Part shown: one piece after another, positions 22,401-64,000 of the stretch
Layout of the letters: every line of letters begins with the position of its first letter
How positions within the stretch are numbered: position 1 is the stretch's first letter
NCBI RefSeq assembly: GCF_963576615.1
Contig: NC_088711.1
Location: 58,756,248-58,820,247, forward strand
From: Watersipora subatra
Lineage: Eukaryota; Bryozoa; Gymnolaemata; Cheilostomatida; Watersiporidae
DNA length: 64,000 nt
Direction: 5' to 3'
Notes under the pieces: model-generated
Seen by the model: only the letters and a program-made list of their open reading frames with translations
What the model was told of the DNA's origin: nothing
Database searches by the model: none
Position numbers and translations under genes: made by a program

Positions 22401-22931
22401 TTACTGTTGATAAATTCCATGCATAGTAACAATGCAATAGACATTGGCACTCTGCCAATTGTACGTTACTACATTATCAAAGTTGGTATCCCAAGCACAC
22501 TGACTGCTGATGGATGCTGACTGATCCTTCTTCTCTCCTATAAATACTTGACAAACTAGCTTGTATCGAGAGTAGTCCAAAGTTTTGGCAGCGTCTTTAC
22601 ATTCTGTTGCTAAGATCTTAGACAGAAGGGCAGCAGTCGTTTGCTGATAACGAAAGGTCCTCATACGGGCATCAACTACCTTCTTTATTAGTGGTTTCAC
22701 TAACAATGGATCAAAGCGAGCTTTTGGCTCCAGTTGGTAGGTCGGCGGAATTGGACGATCTATCATCTGCTGCTGTCTTCCTTGACGAAACCTTTTGACG
22801 TAGTTCCTGGCAAGCTGTCTGGTGATAAGAATGCTGAAGATGGAGGGACCCGCTGTCTTTGGGTCAGATTTAACTGATGTTTGTGAGCTCTTTCGTGCTG
22901 TTGTTTTGCCGCTGCAACACCCAAATATCAT
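22401..22931 (-). CDS. Tctex1-domain dynein light chain, intronless
   Basis: A single 176-codon frame. Residues about 65-176 form a Tctex1 domain: PIPPTYQLEP, then a helical segment, SRYKLVCQVFIGEKKDQSAS, then SSQCAWDTNFDN, and a terminal NVYCIVTMHGIYQQ strand. These correspond to the YKL..V..G, .RCLWD and ..NVYAVY landmarks of Tctex-type light chains. Such proteins dimerise and link cargo or intermediate chains to cytoplasmic or ciliary dynein. The closest family by length and layout is DYNLT5/TCTEX1D1-like, but the paralogue is not certain. The N-terminus (MIFGCCSGKTTARK) is basic and disordered. A related two-exon gene lies at 31895-34164, and this copy lacks its intron. Confidence 0.85.
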   Translation of the reverse strand: MIFGCCSGKTTARKSSQTSVKSDPKTAGPSIFSILITRQLARNYVKRFRQGRQQQMIDRPIPPTYQLEPKARFDPLLVKPLIKKVVDARMRTFRYQQTTAALLSKILATECKDAAKTLDYSRYKLVCQVFIGEKKDQSASISSQCAWDTNFDNVVTYNWQSANVYCIVTMHGIYQQ

Positions 22932-24820
22932 AATTAATACATATGCACACCAATTTTCATTTTATCTCCTAAAATGCAAAGTGGCTACCACAACCTTTAC
23001 AAAAATGTTGATAGCTGGTTGTTCTTGTTCAATTCTCTTTCCTAAGTGTTGACCGGATCCTATATTAATGTTAATATGTAGTCAGGCTTATAAACCCAAG
23101 AAGTCTGCCGACCAGAGATATTCCTTCACTATTACTTATTTGTCCTTCCAACTAGATGCATACGCATACGCTCCATCTATTCTCAGTATTGTCCTCATCA
23201 CTATTCTTATTACTTTCATCATCCTTATTACTATTCTCTCTATTATTCTCATCATTAATCTTAGTATCATGCTTATTATTAATTCCTAAACCAAACAGAA
23301 GGTTAATACATAGTACAATAAAACTTTCAGTATGTTTAAAGCATCTATCTTGTCAGCAGCCAATGTGAAGGAGGATGACAAATGGTTAAAACCATGGAGA
23401 CTTCAATATTTCACACCTCAAATGAGGGCTAGTTACTGAAGGTGACAAGACTTCTCACTCAATATAGAGATAGCTTCTTCATGATTTCATTTGTGCCAAA
23501 ACCAATTATAGATATCTTTTCCGTGGTCTGCATCTTGCAACATGTGATACTGAAATGTTGACAACTATATATGTTGGCTAAGCAATACTTCATATATACA
23601 TTTATAGTACAAAATTAATAAATTGACTGCTACAAAACCAAACCAACTTTGCTGACCTTGGCTCTGCTGCAGTAGTGACATAATAGTGGTCGCCTTGATA
23701 TACAGAGACATACAGCAGATTTAAATCTTTTAGCGATGCCTTTCATAGAGTTTAAATAGAATGATAAAACATATTTAGTTACTTCCGTAGTAAGGTTTGT
23801 TTTTGCGACGCATATTAGGCTGTGTTATACCTCAACAAATGGAAAATGACGCAGCGGTGATGATGTGCCCATAACATCTAGTTTTTTAATTGGTTAATTA
23901 GATCGCTACATAACGATAATAACAAAACATGGTATTTGTTATGGACTTGCTCTAAAAAAATATAAATTATTCCACAACAAATTACTTCTACTTGTTGAGT
24001 AGTTTGCCCTGGAACAGTTTTTGTAAAGTGTGTAGACGTTGCCGATATCATCCATCTTCGGTCAATAAAACCTGCTTTGTATCACATTTGTTAATAGCGC
24101 TATCCACGTTCGAGCATATGAGAGCTGTCGTGTTCAGCAGGTGGTGTCAGTCCCAAAAATTCTATGCATATAATCTCTTAGTTTATGGTGTTATAATCTT
24201 TAATGGCATTATGTTTATTCTTGGTCAACAGTGAACACATGCAGATGCTTCATGACAAGCTGCACTCGACAGCGGTGAAAAGCATATACATATCGTGTGA
24301 AACTTTCGCTGCTTAGTGCAGTGCTAACTGATTCTCTGACCCGTATGTGCTGCCTGTATGCCTATATTACAGTCTGTCTGTGAAAGAGGAAGAGCACTCT
24401 TGTTTCTGAAAGGTATTTCTATTGATTTTCTTTTTTATTAGAGTCTAAGTCTTCAAGTTAAAAAAGTCTAGTGTTTGTCTCAGACAAGGTGAATGTCGGA
24501 GTCACAAGTTTCTATTTCCTAGCTGCAGTCTGATAAGAAATAACGATTTGTGACAATCAAACACTAATCTAATGCAAGGTTGGAGGATGCTTGCAAGGTT
24601 CAAAAATTACAAAATATTTAAATCAATTTAAGAAGGGTAGATTACGATGTCATTAAATTTTATTACTGATTTTGATAAAATAATAAAAGTCAGCTTTACT
24701 GATGTCAGTCAATGATATTTTTTATTACATAGAGCTCAAAAGGCTGTTTATTTGCGTTGCTGAAAATTATGGAAAGATTATTTATTTTATTATTGTCGTC
24801 ATTTATCTTAACATGGAAAC
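22932..24820. other. Gene-free region between Tctex gene and unknown exon
   Basis: No supported exon. At about 23160-23285 there is a low-complexity tract of TCATTATT and CTCATCATTA type trinucleotide-like repeats. It keeps several frames open and explains the hydrophobic Ile/Leu ORFs there. Confidence 0.55.
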
Positions 24821-30130: not shown

Positions 30131-31275
30131 CAGAGCATATCTTGTACAGTATCATAGACATCTTACACAGCGTCATAGACATCTTGTAAAGCATCATAGA
30201 CATCTTATACAGCATCATAGACATCTTATACAGCGTCATAGACATCTTGTACAGCATCATAGACATCTTATACAGCATCATAGACATCTTATACAGCATC
30301 ATAGACATATTATACAGCGCCATAGATATCCTGTATAATATCATAGACATCTTATACAGTATCATAGACATATTGTACTGCATCATCGACATCTTGTACT
30401 GTGTCATAGATACATTGTACACCATCATAGACATATTATACAGTATCATAGACATATTGTACAGTATCATAGACATATTATACACCATCATAGACATATT
30501 GTTCACCAAGATAGACATATTGTACAGTATCATAGACATATTGTACAGTATCATAGACATATTATACAGTATCATAGACATATTGTACAGTGTCATAGAC
30601 ATCTTGTACAGTATCATAGACATATTATGCAGTATCATAGACATATTGTACACCATCATAGACATATTATACAGTATCATAGACATATTGTACAGTATCA
30701 TAGACATATTGTACAGTGTCATAGACATATTGTACAATATCATAGACCTCTTATACAGTATCATAGACATATTGTACACCATCATAGACATATTATACAG
30801 TATCATAGACATATTGTACAGTGTCATAGACATCTTGTACAGTATCATAGACATATTATGCAGTATCATAGACATATTGTACACCATCATAGACATATTA
30901 TACAGTATCATAGACATATTGTACAGTATCATAGACATATTGTACAGTATCATAGACATATTGTACACCATCATAGACATATTTTACAGTATCATAGACA
31001 TATTGTACAATATCATAGACCTCTTATACAGTATCATAGACATATTGTACACCATCATAGACATATTATACAGTATCATAGACATATTGTACAGTATCAT
31101 AGACATACTGTACAGTGTCATAGACATATTGTACACCATCATAGACATGTTGTACAACAAGATAGACATATTGTACAGTGTCATAGACATATTGTACAGT
31201 ATCATAGACATATTATACAGTATCATAGACATATTGTACACCATCATAGACATATTGTACACCATCATAGACAAC
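30131..31275. repeat. 21-bp minisatellite, about 54 units
   Basis: The unit is ATCATAGACATATTGTACAGT with variants (ATCTTATACAGC at the left, ATTGTACACC scattered through the right). Because the period is a multiple of three and stop codons fall outside several frames, the array is open in two plus frames (repeating YSIIDIL and QYHRHIV) and one minus frame (repeating MSMILYN). The long ORFs here are by-products of the repeat. Higher-order structure is visible: blocks of several units around 30600-30760 recur nearly unchanged around 30760-30960 and 31000-31120. Confidence 0.9.
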
Positions 31276-40700: not shown

Positions 40701-43700
40701 TCATGGAGTAATTATGCGTGTAGTTATTACACACGCCAATCTCTTACGACATTCAGGACTACCAGGGTACTAGTCGATATATATAAATCTCAAAGCCTGT
40801 CATTCGGTCTGTCCAGTTATAGCTATCAAATTCTCGGAATGAAAGATCAGCTTTGTGCTAGATTCGATCTTGGAACCTCCCATTCAACAGGCGATAATCT
40901 AACCAATTAAGCTACGCGAGATGAAATTAATTCATTAGGCGATAGGAGTCGTTATCTCGGGTAAACACCGCATAGTGTTCAGCGTTAACCCTTTCACAGG
41001 CGAGTTTTTTGGGCTATTTAAGACCCCTGGGCAAGTTAATTTTTCAAAAATCAATTTAAAAAAACCATTGATACTCTTATTTATGATATTGTAAACGTGT
41101 ATGTTTTTATGATACAGGTAAATACAAATAAACCTGTTTCAAGTTAATTCTTCATACAACTGTTTCTCTAGCTATGGTACTTTTAGAAGCATTTGCCTTT
41201 GCAGAGGCCTACACCGCAGTCTTGACACCATGCGCTTATTATTGTTGCTCTATAGCTTTGCCTTTGCCTATAGCCTTTGGAGGACGCCACGGCAGTAAAA
41301 GAAAGTTGTTGCACTCTGGGAAAACATTCAGAAAGCAGAAACAAAAGCAGAAACAAGCTACAAACAAAATTCCCAATTTTATTTAAAGACGTTTCTATTT
41401 GTTTTTTGGATTTTTGTTCGCTTAGTATTGCAAAAATGATCATTTTTTCTCTCAAAATGGCTTATCTTTTGTTTGCTAACAGAGACCAATCTATTGTAGT
41501 TTACTATTGGTAAAAAAAACTGAACAAAAAAAGGCACTAAGCCAACCGGAAATCAATTTATAAAAGAACGTTCTAGTGGCGACATAATCGTCGCTCTGCC
41601 CATTATCGTCAGTATCGCAAAACGACAATAATGTCGTTATGCCTGCAAAAGGGTTAAGTAATGTCACTAAAGCTTGCTCTCACGGCTCTTATTACTAAGT
41701 TTAGCAATACGGATATGAGCTTACTCAAATTAGCCATTGGCAATGTGCCAGGCTAATGGCAAGTTGCAAGCAACTACATAATCTGCCACTGTTTATAAGC
41801 TGTTTTAATACCCGTGCAACGCCGGACATTCAGCTAGTTGTAGATAAAATCTTAACAGGCAGGATATCTATACAGTACCTACCTTCTTCACTGCGATGGT
41901 CATCCCTTTTACTCTGTATGTGTGTGCAGAGGGAGGACGTACTCTTGTTTAGAGCGTTTATCTGCTTTGTTGTAGCGTCTGTTGTCAGAATAGATGTTTT
42001 GTCTGACACAGATTTTATTTTTTGTTCCACATCAATTTCCTGTTTGGTTCTGAGATAATCCGGTACAACTTCGTGGTTAAAAGCACTCATTCGGTTTTCC
42101 GTCAGTTTCTAGAAAATGAAGTCATCACAGATTTATCATGAAGAAATACGCAAACAAAATAACAGAGAATCAACAAAAGAACTAACTCTACTAGTACTTG
42201 AATAGCAGCATGCTAGCATAAATTAGAAGTTGCGACGCCTTGTTGTTAGTAACAAATGGGCTCAGCATGCGCAATAAAAACAATCAGAATAAAGCTGTTG
42301 CGTATCTGTATCAGGGCTACTATTGGAGAATAGGTCTGTATCAGGGCTACTATTGGAGAGCAGGTCTGTATCATGACTACTATTGTAGAGTAGATTATAC
42401 AGCAAGCTGGTAGTAAATGATTCCAAACCTGAAAGCTTTACTGATAAGTAAAGCCTTACTGATGAGTAGAGCTTAGCGATTTCCAGAAATCAAAAGACGA
42501 TTTGATATTGCAAATTTGCAATATCAAATCGACATATATCGCAAACCATCTATTTATAGACGATTCCCGATATATCGTGATATTATCAATATATAAAAAA
42601 CTTAAATTTGTATTAATATTTTTTTGTATATTTAACTTAAATAGAAACTCTTTGGTGTTCATAATAATCAGAAATATTTCATGAATGCCTGTGTGGGTGG
42701 AAGGCCATGCAATGAGCTTATTATAAGACTAGAAGGCCGGTGCATTTTAGTTTCGGCATCGCTCACTCTGAAAATTATCAGGTGTGTGATAAATCGCCAT
42801 TACACGATTATACTGTACTATTTATACTATCTGCGATCGCTCTTTAAATGGTGGCGATTTTCAAATCTACCTTCAAAGTCGCCACCTACCAAGTAAATCG
42901 GCATATCACAAAGTTCTGCTAATAAAGCTTCAAGTCTGTGAGCTGATTTGATGAATTTAAGATTTGGTTGTTACAGAGACAATAATATTCTAATATTCAG
43001 AGACATCATATTGAGTAAACATCTCTAATAGTTGATGAACAATATTTTAGGTTATCGCAAAAAGCTGAGCAACAAGTAAACAAATTTTGCTAAGATAGCG
43101 AGCCTACTTTTACCAACGCTGCTGTCTGAATAGCTTTACTTGCTTCTATAGATGATGAACCAATCAGATATAACATGGGCAGTGATAAGTAAGTGTGCCC
43201 TACAAAAGGCATCAGCAAACAATCTGACATAGTAACCAAAAGCCTATCGATTATAGTACATATAGCTTGAGAGACATCAAACTTTTTAAAAACTGTTACC
43301 TCTAAGGCAACATCTCTGTCAGGATTTAGCTGTATAGGAACAAATACATAGTTCTTGAGCGGAGCGAGGCGGTCTGAGGCTAGCATTTTGTGGAACGAGT
43401 TGATTTGACTAGAGAGGAGTGCAAAACTGTCAAGTACACTGGGCCAGCTCAATGTTTCATGCTCATGGTCGAGTTTGTAGAGGAACTGATTGATGGACGC
43501 TTTGATTTCATTCACTTGCTGAATCATACTGTCAAGAGATTGCTCCAACTTAATCTCTTCAGCTTTCTGTAAAGAAGTCATCAGCACACAATTTTAACCG
43601 GTAACTCCCACAACAAACTAATGATCAATTAACAAGAAAAATGATGGTTTTAAGCTAACAACATGATAATCTCTTTAACAGGAAGTAGTTAGGATAGAAA

Positions 43701-58660: not shown

Positions 58661-59163
58661 TAGGTTAATATTTATAATATTTAGAAGGTTCAATAAGTGT
58701 TGTCAGTGACAAAGACTAACCATTCTAATATTTATGCAAATATCTTTCCTTCACCATCTCATGAAAATATGTAGAGTTCTCCATAAACATACATGAATTC
58801 CATAGACATACACAATACTGATACACAAACTATATAGCATGCACAAGAGCTCATGCCATTGTCTATGATTTATGATGTTGCCTATGGTCGACTATGAATC
58901 ATATATAACCAGTGTGGCTGTGAGGAGACCGGAAGAGTCCAATCACGAACCGCTTGGCTCATAAACTGTAGACAGATTATCATTATGGGTTATGTCATCA
59001 GGAGTGCTCTTTATAGGATTGATAAACAGTGTATGGGTGTTATTTTGAGCCGACCCATTCTTAGTAGTTTTTGTAGTAACACATTTTGCTAATTGATGAC
59101 AGATTGGAAGTCAATTTTGCTGTAGCCATTCACGTGTTTTTATCTTCAACTTGCTTGTAAGAC

Positions 59164-59287
59164 TTGACAGAAAATCTTGATGGTTTATCATTTTTGGTTG
59201 GTAAGGAGCACCTTTTTCATGTTCTGAAATTTATTCTTCCAAATTTGGATTTGCCTCCCTTGGCTCTAGCTAAGCAATTATGTTTAA
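59164..59287 (+). other. Coding-like stretch interrupted by transposon
   Basis: A plus-strand frame reads TENLDGLSFLVGKEHLFHVL, then KFILPNLDLPPLALAKQL, with no stop until the transposon's left end at 59288. Beyond the right end (63357 on) the frame does not obviously resume. The residues look more protein-like than neighbouring chance frames, but I recognise no family. It could be a decayed exon or part of an older mobile element. Confidence 0.25.
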
Positions 59288-59416
59288 AGGTTGACTTGCA
59301 ACAAAATTCACATTACAGTTATTTGGTATCAAAAGATTCGCCATGTCTTACTCTATTGTGTTGTAGGTGCCAAATATGTGGGAATGTGATTAAAAGCTCG
59401 TAAAAGCTAAAAACGA
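59288..59416 (+). repeat. Left terminal inverted repeat
   Basis: From AGGTTGACTTGCAACAAAAT through GCCAAATATGTGGGAATGTG to AAAGCTAAAAAC. It pairs with 63222-63352. The subterminal DNA (about 59460-59515) has a direct repeat of AAAACGGCTAAAATGTG. Confidence 0.9.
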
Positions 59417-59915
59417 ACAGAAAATCGCAGCCCCACGAGACCGCCCTAGTTTGGATTCGTTTTCCAAAACGGCTAAAATGTGACGTATGTGTGCTAAAAC
59501 GGCTAAAATGTGTGCGAGATAGTTTATGTTTACACTTTCATGCATCCTTATTCGTCGAACTATTTTCACAAATATACTTCACGCTTGCGATAAAAACCAT
59601 GTCTATTGTTCTTACGCGTCTATTTTATCGGCATCGTAATGCTGCAACTTTGAGCACTGATATCTCAAAACGTAGCATAAAAATATGTTTAATTTTTTAA
59701 GCTTAGCTTGAACGATTGCGTATCATCCTCTGATAAAAATGATGAGCCTTTTGGTCCGCTATGATGGTTGAAAAATGCTGTAGAAATTTTTCGCGCCATA
59801 TAGCGGGAATTGTAAGTCACATGATCAGATAATGTTAGTTTCAGTTCAAGTTTGATCTATCGCAAATAGCAAACACGCTTTCTCATATTAAACTTGTTTA
59901 TTTCAATTCGTCATC

Positions 59916-60143
59916 ATGACTAACGCGCCACATAGTGTTTGTGCAGCTGCCAAGCTGAGAAGCACCTTTTTTTTGGCCAAGAGCTGAGAAAAGACCAGAC
60001 CTTCACCGGGCGTGGAGCAACTGGGTGAAGCTGGATGTGACAAACTTTATTTATTCGCCTGCTTACTCTTACCTTTGTTTTCGCCAGTTCAAAGACGACA
60101 TGTTTTCTAACCTGTTTGAATACTCCACATATCACCAAAGCAC
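59916..60143 (+). pseudogene. Decayed THAP-like DNA-binding exon
   Basis: ATG at 59916 reads MTNAPHSVCAAAKLRSTFF, then hits a stop. A one-base shift within the T-run near 59966-59975 continues as FWPRAEKRPDLHRAWSNWV and later YSYLCFRQFKDDMF, followed by a GTGAGT donor at 60144. Spacing and the R..W and LC..(H)F..D.F landmarks fit a THAP zinc finger. The first Cys pair is incomplete and the zinc-binding His of C-x2-H is Gln. The phase at the donor does not fit the next exon (60533), so either an exon is missed or the gene is broken here. Confidence 0.5.
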
Positions 60144-60532
60144 GTGAGTAATTTATTTTATGAACTACTTGTATTAGTAGTTGTAACTCGGGTTATTTTC
60201 TAGTATTCTCCTAATAGTACTGTATTAATCTATATTTAATATAACAATATTAATGTCATTTAATTGTAATATTATATTATTAGTATTTTATCTTTTTAAT
60301 TACGTGTATTATTCTTATTATAATAACAAAACTAATTCATACTGCATATCTATCTGTAAAACGTAATATATTAATATATAATTGATAAAATAATGTTGTT
60401 TCACGATTAATTTCGCCAAATTTCTTAACCCCCACTCACTTATAGATATGTTATATAAAATAGTTATTGTCATTTTCTGGTATCATCGTTAATAGCATAT
60501 TAATATTATTATTTGATTATTATTAGTATTAG

Positions 60533-61948
60533 ATGATGAAGAGTTTGTGCCAACCACTGAAGACTGGGAAGAGTTTGAGCGCTATGTTGGCCAGCGTCAA
60601 ACGCTCTCCAATTACATGTAAGATAGAGCTGAACTAAACCAAACTTGACAAAATATAAAAAATATCCATAGAGTTATTACTCACATTTTATGTTTACAAT
60701 ATCATGGATTCTGATAGGGTTTTGTAAAATCTGTGTCATGATTGCATGGCTATATATTTATTCTTTTTCTGATCAAGCAAATATGATATAATAACAGGAA
60801 ATGATGTTGTACAAATCTTATTGCAAGTCAACTATTGTGTTGTGATTTCAGACCCGAATCCTCCTTCAAAGAGGAGAAAATAATAGTAAGTGTGACAGCA
60901 CTCCAGCGACTATTTCACTGTCACACCTGCGCCCTCCCCTGCTCATTCACGATGGTGCGAGAAGGCGGATGGGTAGAGTTCAAGGTTACATGTGCCTCCT
61001 GTCACCGATCGTACACTTGGGAAACAACTGCCAGGGTGAACAGAGCTCACGTCATCAACCCCCTGCTGGCAGCTGCATCACTCTTTTCTGGCGGATGCCT
61101 TATGCAGAACCTCCGTTTTCTGTCGCTCCTGAACATCGCAATACCAAGCCACAGCGTTTGCCTCTACCAACAAAGAGAATACTTACATGGTGTGAGTGTT
61201 AATATTTACTCATAAACTTGGAAAATGTGAGTAAAAGCTTGGCACACTAATTGAATAACAACATTTAGAAACAATTTTTTTCTTGAAATGAACATATGTC
61301 ATCCTTCAAGCAAAATATATTATAATTCAAAATTCTGATTCTTCATCATAATATAGCACAAAAAGGGGGAAGAGGATTCTACATTCTTAGACTAATGATA
61401 ATGATACAAATTAATCTTGTATAATGAAGTTTTACAATATTTTACAGTGTATTGCTGAGCAGTACACCCTGCATAACGAGGGATTGATGGCAGCAATCGA
61501 TTGGGAGCTTGATTTGGCAGGTGACGGTAGATGCGATAGTCCGGGGCATTGCGCACTATACAGAGCCTACACTATGATGGATCAGAGCTGTGGTTTAATA
61601 GTCAGCAGCCATCTTGTCAAGGTAAAACTTTGACAGTTTTTACTTCACAGCCTGACAAAAACCCAAATTTTTTAGTAGTTATCAATACATAAACATGAAG
61701 TTGCTCATCTAGCTAAATAGTTCATTCAAATAATGTGAAAGTAATTGTTGGTCGTAACTTTCTTTACTTTGCAGTCAACAGAGACCACCAGCTCTAACAC
61801 CATGGAGCTGGAAGGCTTCAAGCGATGCCAGTCCGATCTAATTCCCCACGGCCTGAGAGTGAGGTCCATTACAACGGATGTTGTTACAAAGGTTGTGTGC
61901 ATACTGCAAGCTTGTGTTTTGGCTTATGCCGCAAATTTGTCGCCGTGA
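60533..61948 (+). CDS. Kolobok-like transposase, truncated
   Basis: Exons 60533-60617, 60852-61191, 61448-61621 and 61775-61948 join in frame with good borders. An acidic start (DEEFVPTTEDWEEF) leads to a Cys pair region (FHCHTC, then VTCASCH: a C-x2-C...C-x2-C knuckle), then NPLLAAASLFSG and SVCLYQQREYL. The catalytic part begins AGDGRCDSPGHCALYRAYTM and continues with NTMELEGFKRC and SITTD. The first and second DDE aspartates are likely those in GDGRCD and TTD. After TTD the frame enters an inverted duplication and stops at 61946-61948, so the third acidic residue and the C-terminus are missing. These landmarks match a widespread uncharacterised metazoan transposase-like family. The true N-terminus is not seen. 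Confidence 0.75.
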
Positions 61949-62091
61949 GCGACGGCCTCTACCTGCATGCTTGGTGTCTAAGATTTGGGCTCTTTTCCCA
62001 CCAACGGATGGTGAAGAAGAGTTTGCAGACTTGCAAACAAGATTTGCGGCATAAACCAAAACACAAGATTGCGGTATGCACACAACCTTTT
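61888..62091. repeat. Inverted duplication, 50-bp arms
   Basis: The left arm 61888-61937 and right arm 62041-62091 are reverse complements with about three or four mismatches (core AAGGTTGTGTGCATAC and TTATGCCGCAAAT) around a spacer of about 103 bp. The right arm lies in exon 3 of the minus-strand zinc-domain gene; the left arm forms the last codons of the truncated transposase. Confidence 0.85.
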
Positions 62092-62966
62092 CCAAGCATT
62101 TGGCGATGGCTCTCCAAATGGGAATAGATTATCTACCAAAACAACTATTGAAAAACAATAATTGCTGATCATCAAAATAATCTCGATCTTTATATAATAA
62201 AATCATAAAACTAATACACTCTCTACTGTAGTAAGTGTACAAGCCAAATATAACAATTCTCCTTGTGTTCCACGAGTTCAGAATATGTGTGTTCAACTGA
62301 TGCATTAAATGTGTAACACAAGAATTGTAGATAATGCTTGACACATTAGCATAGCCTTAGTGTTGTTGGCATTAAATGAATATCCAACTCACTATGATAT
62401 CGCAGGTAATTATTCCACCTCAACTCAAGGGGTGCAGACGCCACAAATTCGTTTACACCAGGATGCATACGCAGGCATTCATGCTCCCCTCGGTCAAGGA
62501 GACAATGCGCAAACTCAGCATAATGGCAGCACAAACATTCAGGAAGAGATGGCATGTCTTGACAACGCTCACAGGCACACCACTCTGTAGCCGGTGGTAA
62601 TAGCTCCTAAAGAAATGAACAGATATGTCTATGCAACCATAGCTAATACATCAGGTCGATGTTATCCAACAGTATATCAGTGCAGCACTAGATTTAAATA
62701 TTAAAATTGTTAATGTTGTCATTCGAGAAAAATCTGTAATTATTTTTTCGCAATATTGAAGCGATAATTATCATCATTAAAATCATATATAATAATATTC
62801 GTTCTATCACTCTCAAGCTAAAACTATTACTACTAGCTAGCTTGGCACATAAGAGCTGGCTAGTGGCGGTGCTTACTTGCTGGGAGGTTTGATTCTGTTG
62901 AGGATCTTCTTCAGATAGAGCGTCAGGCTCGAAACGCCAGGGTCTTAACTCTTCAGAATTTGACAT
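61978..62966 (-). CDS. P2X7-type cytoplasmic zinc (ballast) domain protein
   Basis: Exons 62966-62877, 62606-62393 and 62132-61978; phases 0 and 1; 152 aa. Exon 1 gives MSNSEELRPWRFEPDALSEE, a typical acidic lead. Exon 2 gives EWCACERCQDMPSLPECLCC, then CLRMHPGVNEF and LELRWNNYL. These are the WC.C..C..MP...E..CC, C...HP and W..Y landmarks of the C-terminal zinc-binding region of vertebrate P2X7 receptors, which also occurs as a stand-alone domain in many invertebrate and mobile-element proteins. Exon 3 has WKRLCAYRNLVFW, matching the AYR..V.W motif after which the family normally continues; here the frame diverges and stops at 61978. There are no transmembrane segments, so it is not a receptor. 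Role unknown; a nucleic-acid or protein-binding partner of the transposase is a guess. Confidence 0.75.
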
Positions 62967-63221
62967 TTTTTATGATCGCAACTCAGACATGAATAGTCGA
63001 ACGGAATGGCCAAGCTGAAACTGTAAAGTAGCGAGCATCTATATTTGATACGGGGTCTTAGGTAAAACCCGAAGTGATTATCATAAACTATTGCTACGAT
63101 AAGTTTGATATTGAGCTTTTTATTGGCCTTTCAATTCACGCGAGAACATCACGTGACAAGACAATAACCATACAGCGCGGATACGTCATCGAAATCAAGA
63201 GATTCCAATCTACGGCGGCTT

Positions 63222-63352
63222 TTTGTTTTTGAGCTTTTAAGAGCTTTTAATCACATTTCCACATATTTGGCACCTACCACACAACAGAGTAAAACATGGC
63301 GAATCTTTTGATACCAAATAACTGTAATGTGAATTTTGTTGCAAGTCAACCT
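63222..63352 (-). repeat. Right terminal inverted repeat
   Basis: The reverse complement begins AGGTTGACTTGCAACAAAAT and runs to AAAAGCTCAAAAACAAAAAG. It is nearly identical to the left TIR, with a one-base indel near AGCT(C)AAAAAC. Confidence 0.9.
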
Positions 63353-63356
63353 TTAA

Positions 63357-64000
63357 GCTAGGCTAACAACACATTTAGTAGCTGTCAATGTAAAACATTG
63401 TACAAGTCTGTATGCAAAATGCATTTAACATTTAGTTTATTGTTACACTTTTATATTAGTTTAAAAAGAAAAACTATGATAATAACTGCATTAGCAACAA
63501 TTCAATATATTTCACGAAACAGCAGCTGGAAAATCCACCAGTGAAATGCTGCCATAATAGTGGTAAACTCGATTTCTATTAGCAAAACATTTAAGGTGTC
63601 ATTTGAAAAACCCCATCTATTGCAAACCTACCTTCTGTCGGTCTTCCCTTGTCCTCCCTTCTCCTTTCCCTTACCCCTCCCTTCCCTTTAAGGGCATCAT
63701 CTGTGCTCAACCTCTCTTCTACCCGGACGATCTCCCCACTCCCGTCCTTTTCCCGAGCTTCTCTCATCCTTCCCCTTCTTATACTTCTCTCCCAAAACAT
63801 TCCCCCCTTCTTCTACCCTACCCCACCCATCACCCCCTACCCACCTTTTCCCCTCTCCGACCATTCTCCTTCCTCATAAGTTCACCAGCCATAAAGCTTC
63901 AAGTATCATCTAATATTTGGCAAACAAAAAAGTAGACAAGATTCCATGAAAATAAGCTGGTCCAACGGTGGCAAACTGCTAAATTGCAGGTACAGAGGTT
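63357..64000. other. Gene-free right flank
   Basis: No exon is seen. The plus strand is pyrimidine-rich at about 63640-63890 (CCTT and CCCC-rich, irregular), which opens Pro/Ser/Leu-rich frames that are composition artefacts. Confidence 0.5.

Follow-up and report, generated by a model that had tools for sequence, protein, structure and literature searches.

Is the 4-kb, TTAA-flanked unit in a 64,000-nt stretch of the genome of the bryozoan Watersipora subatra (contig NC_088711.1, positions 58,756,248 to 58,820,247; hereafter the window) a complete transposon carrying two opposed genes, as a preliminary description held, or the remnant of one? The unit, at 59284-63356, is a real transposon, but its genes, for a transposase on the + strand and for a protein termed KolX on the - strand, are incomplete, being internally deleted and rearranged. 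It is very probably a non-autonomous derivative of a Kol0-type Kolobok element, recently amplified and moved in trans. According to the available part of PMC9587614, Kol0 is the original Kolobok group and encodes two proteins, a transposase and KolX; the gene pair, which the preliminary description did not know as a described type, is therefore already described and does not define a new kind of element. In the literature searched, that paper alone was found to describe KolX with Kolobok. The window copy is thus a new member of a described two-gene Kolobok family, and a non-autonomous, rearranged one. Its features are listed below in window coordinates; L090, named there, is a copy from contig C2 of the same genome that shows the undisturbed gene order.

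59284-59287, no strand: left TTAA target-site copy, border read in the sequence
59288-59413, + strand: left terminal inverted repeat, starting AGGTTGACTTGC
59916-60143, + strand: candidate first exon of the transposase, resembling THAP by eye only, with an extra T that shifts the frame
60533-60617, + strand: transposase exon 2, from splice borders and frame
60852-61191, + strand: transposase exon 3, weak Mutator-like match, open in 21 of 21 distinct copies
61448-61621, + strand: transposase exon 4 with the first catalytic D candidate (GDGRCDSPGH), 91% amino acid identity to L090
61775-~61878, + strand: transposase exon 5, cut off by the rearrangement just past the second D candidate (ITTD)
61888-62031, + strand: inverted piece of KolX exon 3 with the third Cys motif (...RRPLPACLVSKIWALFPP...), from protein and DNA matches
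62042-62132, - strand: start of KolX exon 3 in its own orientation, read by eye from the AG acceptor
62393-62606, - strand: KolX exon 2 with Cys cluster 1 and part of cluster 2, open in 46 of 48 distinct copies
62877-62966, - strand: KolX exon 1 (MSNSEELRPW...), open in 24 of 28 copies
63227-63352, - strand: right terminal inverted repeat
63353-63356, no strand: right TTAA target-site copy, border read in the sequence

The ends of the unit are intact. Its two TTAA sites enclose 4,065 bp, and the inverted arms 59284-59413 and 63227-63356 (130 nt including TTAA, with repeats of about 125 bp) are 95% complementary, in agreement with the borders and repeats first described. Just inside TTAA the termini read AGG...CCT, which fits the 5'-RR ... 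YY-3' ends of Kolobok. TTAA lies directly at the terminus in 31 of the 36 non-self ends fetched, and the flanks differ among these ends, with the exception of two loci (L034 and L035) that have a common flank. No direct repeats longer than 29 nt were reported in 58800-64000.

The incompleteness of both genes becomes apparent in the comparison with L090, which is collinear with the window over 60661-61253 (93%) and 61375-61878 (90%). Past exon 5, where the window copy breaks off, the L090 stretch holds ITTDRHFSVGKYIREEWADVCHYYVAWHIVKG and TAELESFHKQLNHFAPNMVGFSYHGINSR; L090 thus has a transposase C-terminus absent from the window (ITTDRH..., ...TAELESFHKQLNHFAP...), with candidate catalytic residues read by eye in TTD, WH and LESFH. 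The stretch between the second D and the E, the place of an H2CH zinc finger in Kolobok, is present only in L090, one degraded copy. A 1.6-kb segment (L090 1108-2720) found no counterpart in the window element by blastn; after it come KolX exon 3, in place on the - strand, and then the counterpart of window 62042-62227 (98%). In the window, L090 2721-2864 is inverted (61888-62031, a 93% DNA match to L090 2864-2721 reversed), and 2816-2864 is present both ways, which gives the 49-nt outer arms (94%) of a 203-bp near-palindrome at 61888-62090 formed by the inverted piece and the start of KolX exon 3. The + strand of the near-palindrome reads QRLCAYCKLVFWLMPQICRRERRPLPACLVSKIWALFPPTDGEEEFADLQTRFAA and matches the minus-strand KolX exon of L089, a second locus described below, at 56% amino acid identity (E 4e-16), and the piece is therefore read as the last KolX exon turned round; most of that exon is missing in its own orientation in the window. 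With the transposase C-terminus gone and the last KolX exon partly inverted, the element cannot be called complete. Judged from its sequence, L090 is a parent-type copy, though not one proven to work.

On the + strand, transposase exons 2-5 are joined by three in-frame junctions with GT/AG borders, which upholds the earlier reading of a spliced transposase-like gene. Of the D, D, C/DxxH, E set of the Kolobok DDE transposase, with roles read by eye, the window transposase keeps only the two D candidates, and no frame for the part beyond the second D was seen in the window. PF20700 matches the unspliced exon-3 open reading frame below its cut-off of 26.5 bits (E 3e-4, 20.3 bits) but was not recovered by Pfam on the joined exons, and is thus weak support for the window's transposase. 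The candidate first exon, which joins exon 2 out of frame, has a frameshift caused by eight T's in the window, whereas seven are found in 20 of the 30 copies readable there; it has an open frame of 76 codons in 17 of its 32 occurrences among the loci, a count in which some copies are covered twice and two loci (L001 and L039) are the window copy itself. A THAP domain, which the preliminary description named as frequent in Kolobok elements, seemed likely by eye in this exon; three open-frame copies gave no Pfam match, for want of which the domain was dropped, and no C2CH ligands were seen by eye.

On the - strand, KolX exons 62966-62877 and 62606-62393 are joined in frame, and their product contains WCACERC ... 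ECLCC. The joined exons match the Pfam family P2RX7_C (PF20478) below its cut-off of 23.5 bits (E 0.0032, 17.9 bits), as does the + strand piece of the last KolX exon in the window (E 0.023), and a PDB search with exons 1-2 returned one match, at E 0.65, which is not P2X7. Exon 3 of L090 exceeds the P2RX7_C cut-off (24.8 bits) and at E<=10 retrieves from PDB four P2X7 sequences only (best E 0.018). As the mark of Kol0, KolX Cys clusters 1 and part of 2 are found in exon 2 of the window, and cluster 3 in exon 3 of L090. The Cys clusters of the P2X7 zinc domain are those defined in the available part of PMC7016195; as far as the text of PMC9587614 is available, KolX is similar to P2X7 residues 476-595, P2X7 arose via fusion with KolX, and its ballast domain is derived from KolX. 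Across the genome, 161 P2RX7_C matches at E<=1 fall in several families, part of them below the cut-off. A separate, intronless KolX family (L069-L088) has frames of up to 285 amino acids, and in several of them the three Cys clusters are all present. One of these loci, L069, finds P2X7 structures at E 2.5e-5, and the flanks of the family's loci gave no good match to the window's transposase.

The rearranged unit has many copies in the 783.7 Mb (239 contigs) searched. The left 217 bp gave 3,641 first-look candidates, KolX exon 2 gave 511 and transposase exon 3 gave 510, and the best 40 of each list all match at 99% or more. The interval from exon 4 through the near-palindrome is spanned by every non-self locus of two sets, 29 for KolX and 29 for exon 3, and all 51 distinct non-self copies among them hold the near-palindrome and the same inner structure (loci covering one copy twice, namely seven exon-3 loci and L061, being dropped); one, L023, is rearranged beyond the near-palindrome. 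In a search with KolX exon 3, 101 of the best 150 matches start at residue 1-5, that is, they have the undisturbed upstream part, and 49 start at 14-15, as in the window; among the 101 undisturbed places, the sequence read was that of L090. With the 49 window-type matches taken together with the loci fetched, the inverted piece is present at 79 or more places including the window, and the approximately 510 first-look candidates suggest still more. Five of the seven non-self left-end loci match the window to the locus end, the other two stopping at 59868 (L002) and 60325 (L005), and 13 of the 14 left-end/KolX pairs among the matches listed, window included, are spaced by 3,085-3,314 bp, with one at 6,643 bp. 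That last copy, at C5:49.46 Mb (6.6 kb from left end to KolX), was considered as a parent and rejected, as the window match breaks off in intron 1 at 60325 (L005); it looks like a nested insertion.

Parent-type candidates are fewer. Their catalytic-E region gave 51 candidates against 510-511 for transposase exon 3 and KolX exon 2, and gutted candidates thus outnumber parent-type ones, which fits movement in trans. Among the best 40 of the 51, 28 regions face an undisturbed KolX exon 3 on the other strand, 0.99-1.3 kb away. The pair is likewise present in every one of the 29 non-self loci fetched with KolX. This recurrence of the two genes together supports the earlier proposal that the P2X7-type zinc-domain gene on the - strand belongs to this Kolobok-type lineage. 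Terminal repeats without the minus-strand gene, a finding that the preliminary description had set against its own proposal, do exist: a gene-less 877-bp unit (L089:3786-4662) has ends of the window family (79-91% identical) with TTAA on both sides. It reads as a further derivative, and is no proof that KolX is foreign. This unit is nested within another inverted repeat. Many parent-type transposase copies are found on C2:46.4-53.7 Mb; most have the same strand, spacings of ~100 kb are frequent, and the pattern looks like serial duplication of a host segment with the element inside it.

The burst appears young. Copies of the 4-kb unit diverge from their own consensus by 0.2-2.3% per segment, and distinct copies are open in exon 4 (47 of 50), exon 5 (48 of 50) and the inverted piece (48 of 50). 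With each change counted once and duplicate loci removed, in a sample biased towards copies nearest the window, the ratio of nonsynonymous to synonymous changes was 4.00 in exon 3 (2.81 expected), 4.75 in exon 4 (3.30), 3.00 in exon 5 (2.61), 10.50 in KolX exon 1 (3.34) and 2.80 in the inverted piece (2.86); KolX exon 2 is taken up below. Three non-coding controls gave 2.14, 2.29 and 7.00 against 3.23, 2.86 and 2.83 expected, and the measure is noisy, since controls stray as far. Clear coding constraint was not detected in the six coding segments of the 4-kb copies, and the open frames are most simply explained by the youth of the burst.

A cut-and-paste unit that has both its ends can be moved by a transposase made elsewhere. 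We propose that a parent of perhaps ~5.5 kb carried a spliced DDE transposase gene on one strand and KolX on the other, the two being convergent. The ancestor of the 4-kb unit would have lost ~1.6 kb between the genes, with part of the last KolX exon left inverted; the order of deletion and inversion is one that we can only infer. The gutted unit, having kept both ends, could then have been cut and pasted at TTAA by transposase supplied in trans, and would recently have spread to many places. KolX itself may have a role in transposition.

Other accounts of the locus fare less well. An intact autonomous two-gene transposon, making both proteins whole and moving itself, would agree with the intact ends, the high copy number and the open state of exons 3-5 and of KolX exons 1-2 in most distinct copies; however, the window has no frame after the second D, at the point where L090 has that part and the element has no blastn match to it, and the third Cys cluster of KolX is inverted, so that this account, largely refuted by L090, is highly improbable. 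Hardly any more can be said for the near-palindrome being an unrelated miniature inverted-repeat transposable element (MITE) inserted in the transposase gene. Its 49-nt arms do make it a self-contained inverted repeat, yet its borders, inspected by eye, show no target duplication, and its + strand codes for KolX exon 3 and matches that of L090 reversed, on which grounds a foreign MITE was rejected as its origin; nor does simple insertion explain why the adjoining 1.6 kb is gone. The likeness of the minus-strand gene to a vertebrate receptor domain might point to a host gene captured by the window element alone; against this, KolX is a standing part of Kol0 in the available text of PMC9587614, the 161 P2RX7_C matches in the genome belong to several families, and the convergent pair recurs in parent-type copies, and we give such a capture next to no credence.

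The KP form of the P element offers a comparison for a shortened protein that acts on its parent. A similar job for the shortened proteins here, with the N-terminal part of the transposase or the truncated KolX repressing or aiding the parent, is compatible with a derivative moved in trans. It would suit exons that are open in most distinct copies, and KolX exon 2 leans to synonymous changes (18 nonsynonymous and 11 synonymous, a ratio of 1.64 against 3.12 expected), so that constraint there is possible. However, the five other coding segments range from 2.8 to 10.5 against 2.6-3.3 expected, the KolX figure is within the range of the controls, and youth alone could explain the open frames; we consider such a job unlikely. 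The lean in KolX exon 2 is also one of several points that count against a rearranged derivative free of coding constraint and moved by its parent. L090 is a single fragment, frameshifted in transposase exon 3, without ~115 bp of intron that the window has, and was read internally rather than to its ends, so that the same terminal repeats in the parent are presumed. It has V three residues before the WH histidine, against the C/D of C/DxxH, and the MULE family PF10551 matches its exon 5 weakly (E 0.026, below cut-off). Each search scored the best 40 (or 150) candidates, nearest the query first, and 12 of the 40 catalytic-region copies, all on C2:46.4-53.7 Mb, have no exon 3 partner among the best 150 matches listed. 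Even so, the rearranged, non-autonomous Kol0-type derivative is very probably the correct reading.

A second KolX lineage is represented by L089 (G000:C10:55914200-55920200), with a transposase open reading frame at 860-1966 on the + strand, continuing in another frame, and a convergent KolX at 5535-4682 on the - strand. Its transposase matches PF20700 strongly (E 5.9e-39) and has, by eye, a CxxC...HxC zinc-finger insert following the first D. In a search with this lineage's KolX exon 2, all 27 candidates were matches; the transposase piece gave 118 candidates, of which the best 40 were scored. Pairs occur at nine or more places, 3.6-5.0 kb apart, in the same convergent layout, and for the remaining 18 KolX matches there is no partner among the matches listed. 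In four of the nine pairs the transposase is 92-95% identical to that of L089, and the pairs are therefore not one recent duplication. As far as these sequences go, the chances are about even that KolX is not bound to the transposase of Kol0. It would in that case be an accessory module that several Kolobok lineages have and that can be transferred, and animals would have drawn the P2X7 ballast domain from a pool extending beyond Kol0. We regard the L089 pairing as a modest lead.

In itself the window element is nothing unusual: a DNA transposon of a known family that was deleted internally and out-copied its parent. Its interest lies in the presence of parent-type copies beside many derivatives in one animal, a setting in which the part that KolX plays in transposition could be put to the test. 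In addition, KolX occurs here with at least two kinds of transposase, as well as in an intronless form, and this bears on the origin of the zinc-binding tail of the P2X7 receptor. Elsewhere in the window, 30142-31273 holds ~54 copies of a 21-bp unit with long frames open on both strands and is probably an array, not a gene; 43093-43593 (-) is a host exon of Mediator subunit 8 (PF10232, E 2.1e-24), and 22404-22961 (-) a host exon of a Tctex-1 family protein (PF03645, E 4.1e-23).

Several known systems resemble the window element. Like piggyBac, it uses a TTAA target; its termini, however, begin with AG, and 5'-RR marks Kolobok against piggyBac in the available text of PMC9587614. KolobokP, as far as the same source describes it, belongs to the same superfamily and pairs a transposase with an accessory gene on the complementary strand, but has long terminal direct repeats of ~450 or 660 bp, none of which were found in the window element; general Pfam scans of the minus-strand open reading frames, with no search aimed at it, gave no KolobokP His-Me nuclease. 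The Xenopus XKol and T2-MITE elements share TTAA, AGG-type termini and an autonomous form with many non-autonomous derivatives, and their transposases keep the THAP C2CH in 31 of 38 and 24 of 24 cases, whereas THAP is without support here; the domain is usual, not universal, in Kolobok (all from the available part of PMC6004289). Compared with the P2X7 ballast and Nanor-like proteins in the accessible portion of PMC7016195, the window fits the first cluster, WCxCx2C, and LCC alone of the second, whose R and G are not conserved in it, and the third cluster, (L/I/V)PxC...FP, is present in L090 with A for S; here, unlike in P2X7, the domain is a separate transposon-encoded protein. Closest is Kol0 with KolX (Kolobok-1_XT type), which, to the extent covered by the available text of PMC9587614, is alike in TTAA, in 5'-RR ends (here AG) and in a transposase accompanied by the Cys pattern of the KolX ballast; the window copy differs from it in having no transposase C-terminus and part of the last KolX exon inverted, and L090 has both in place.

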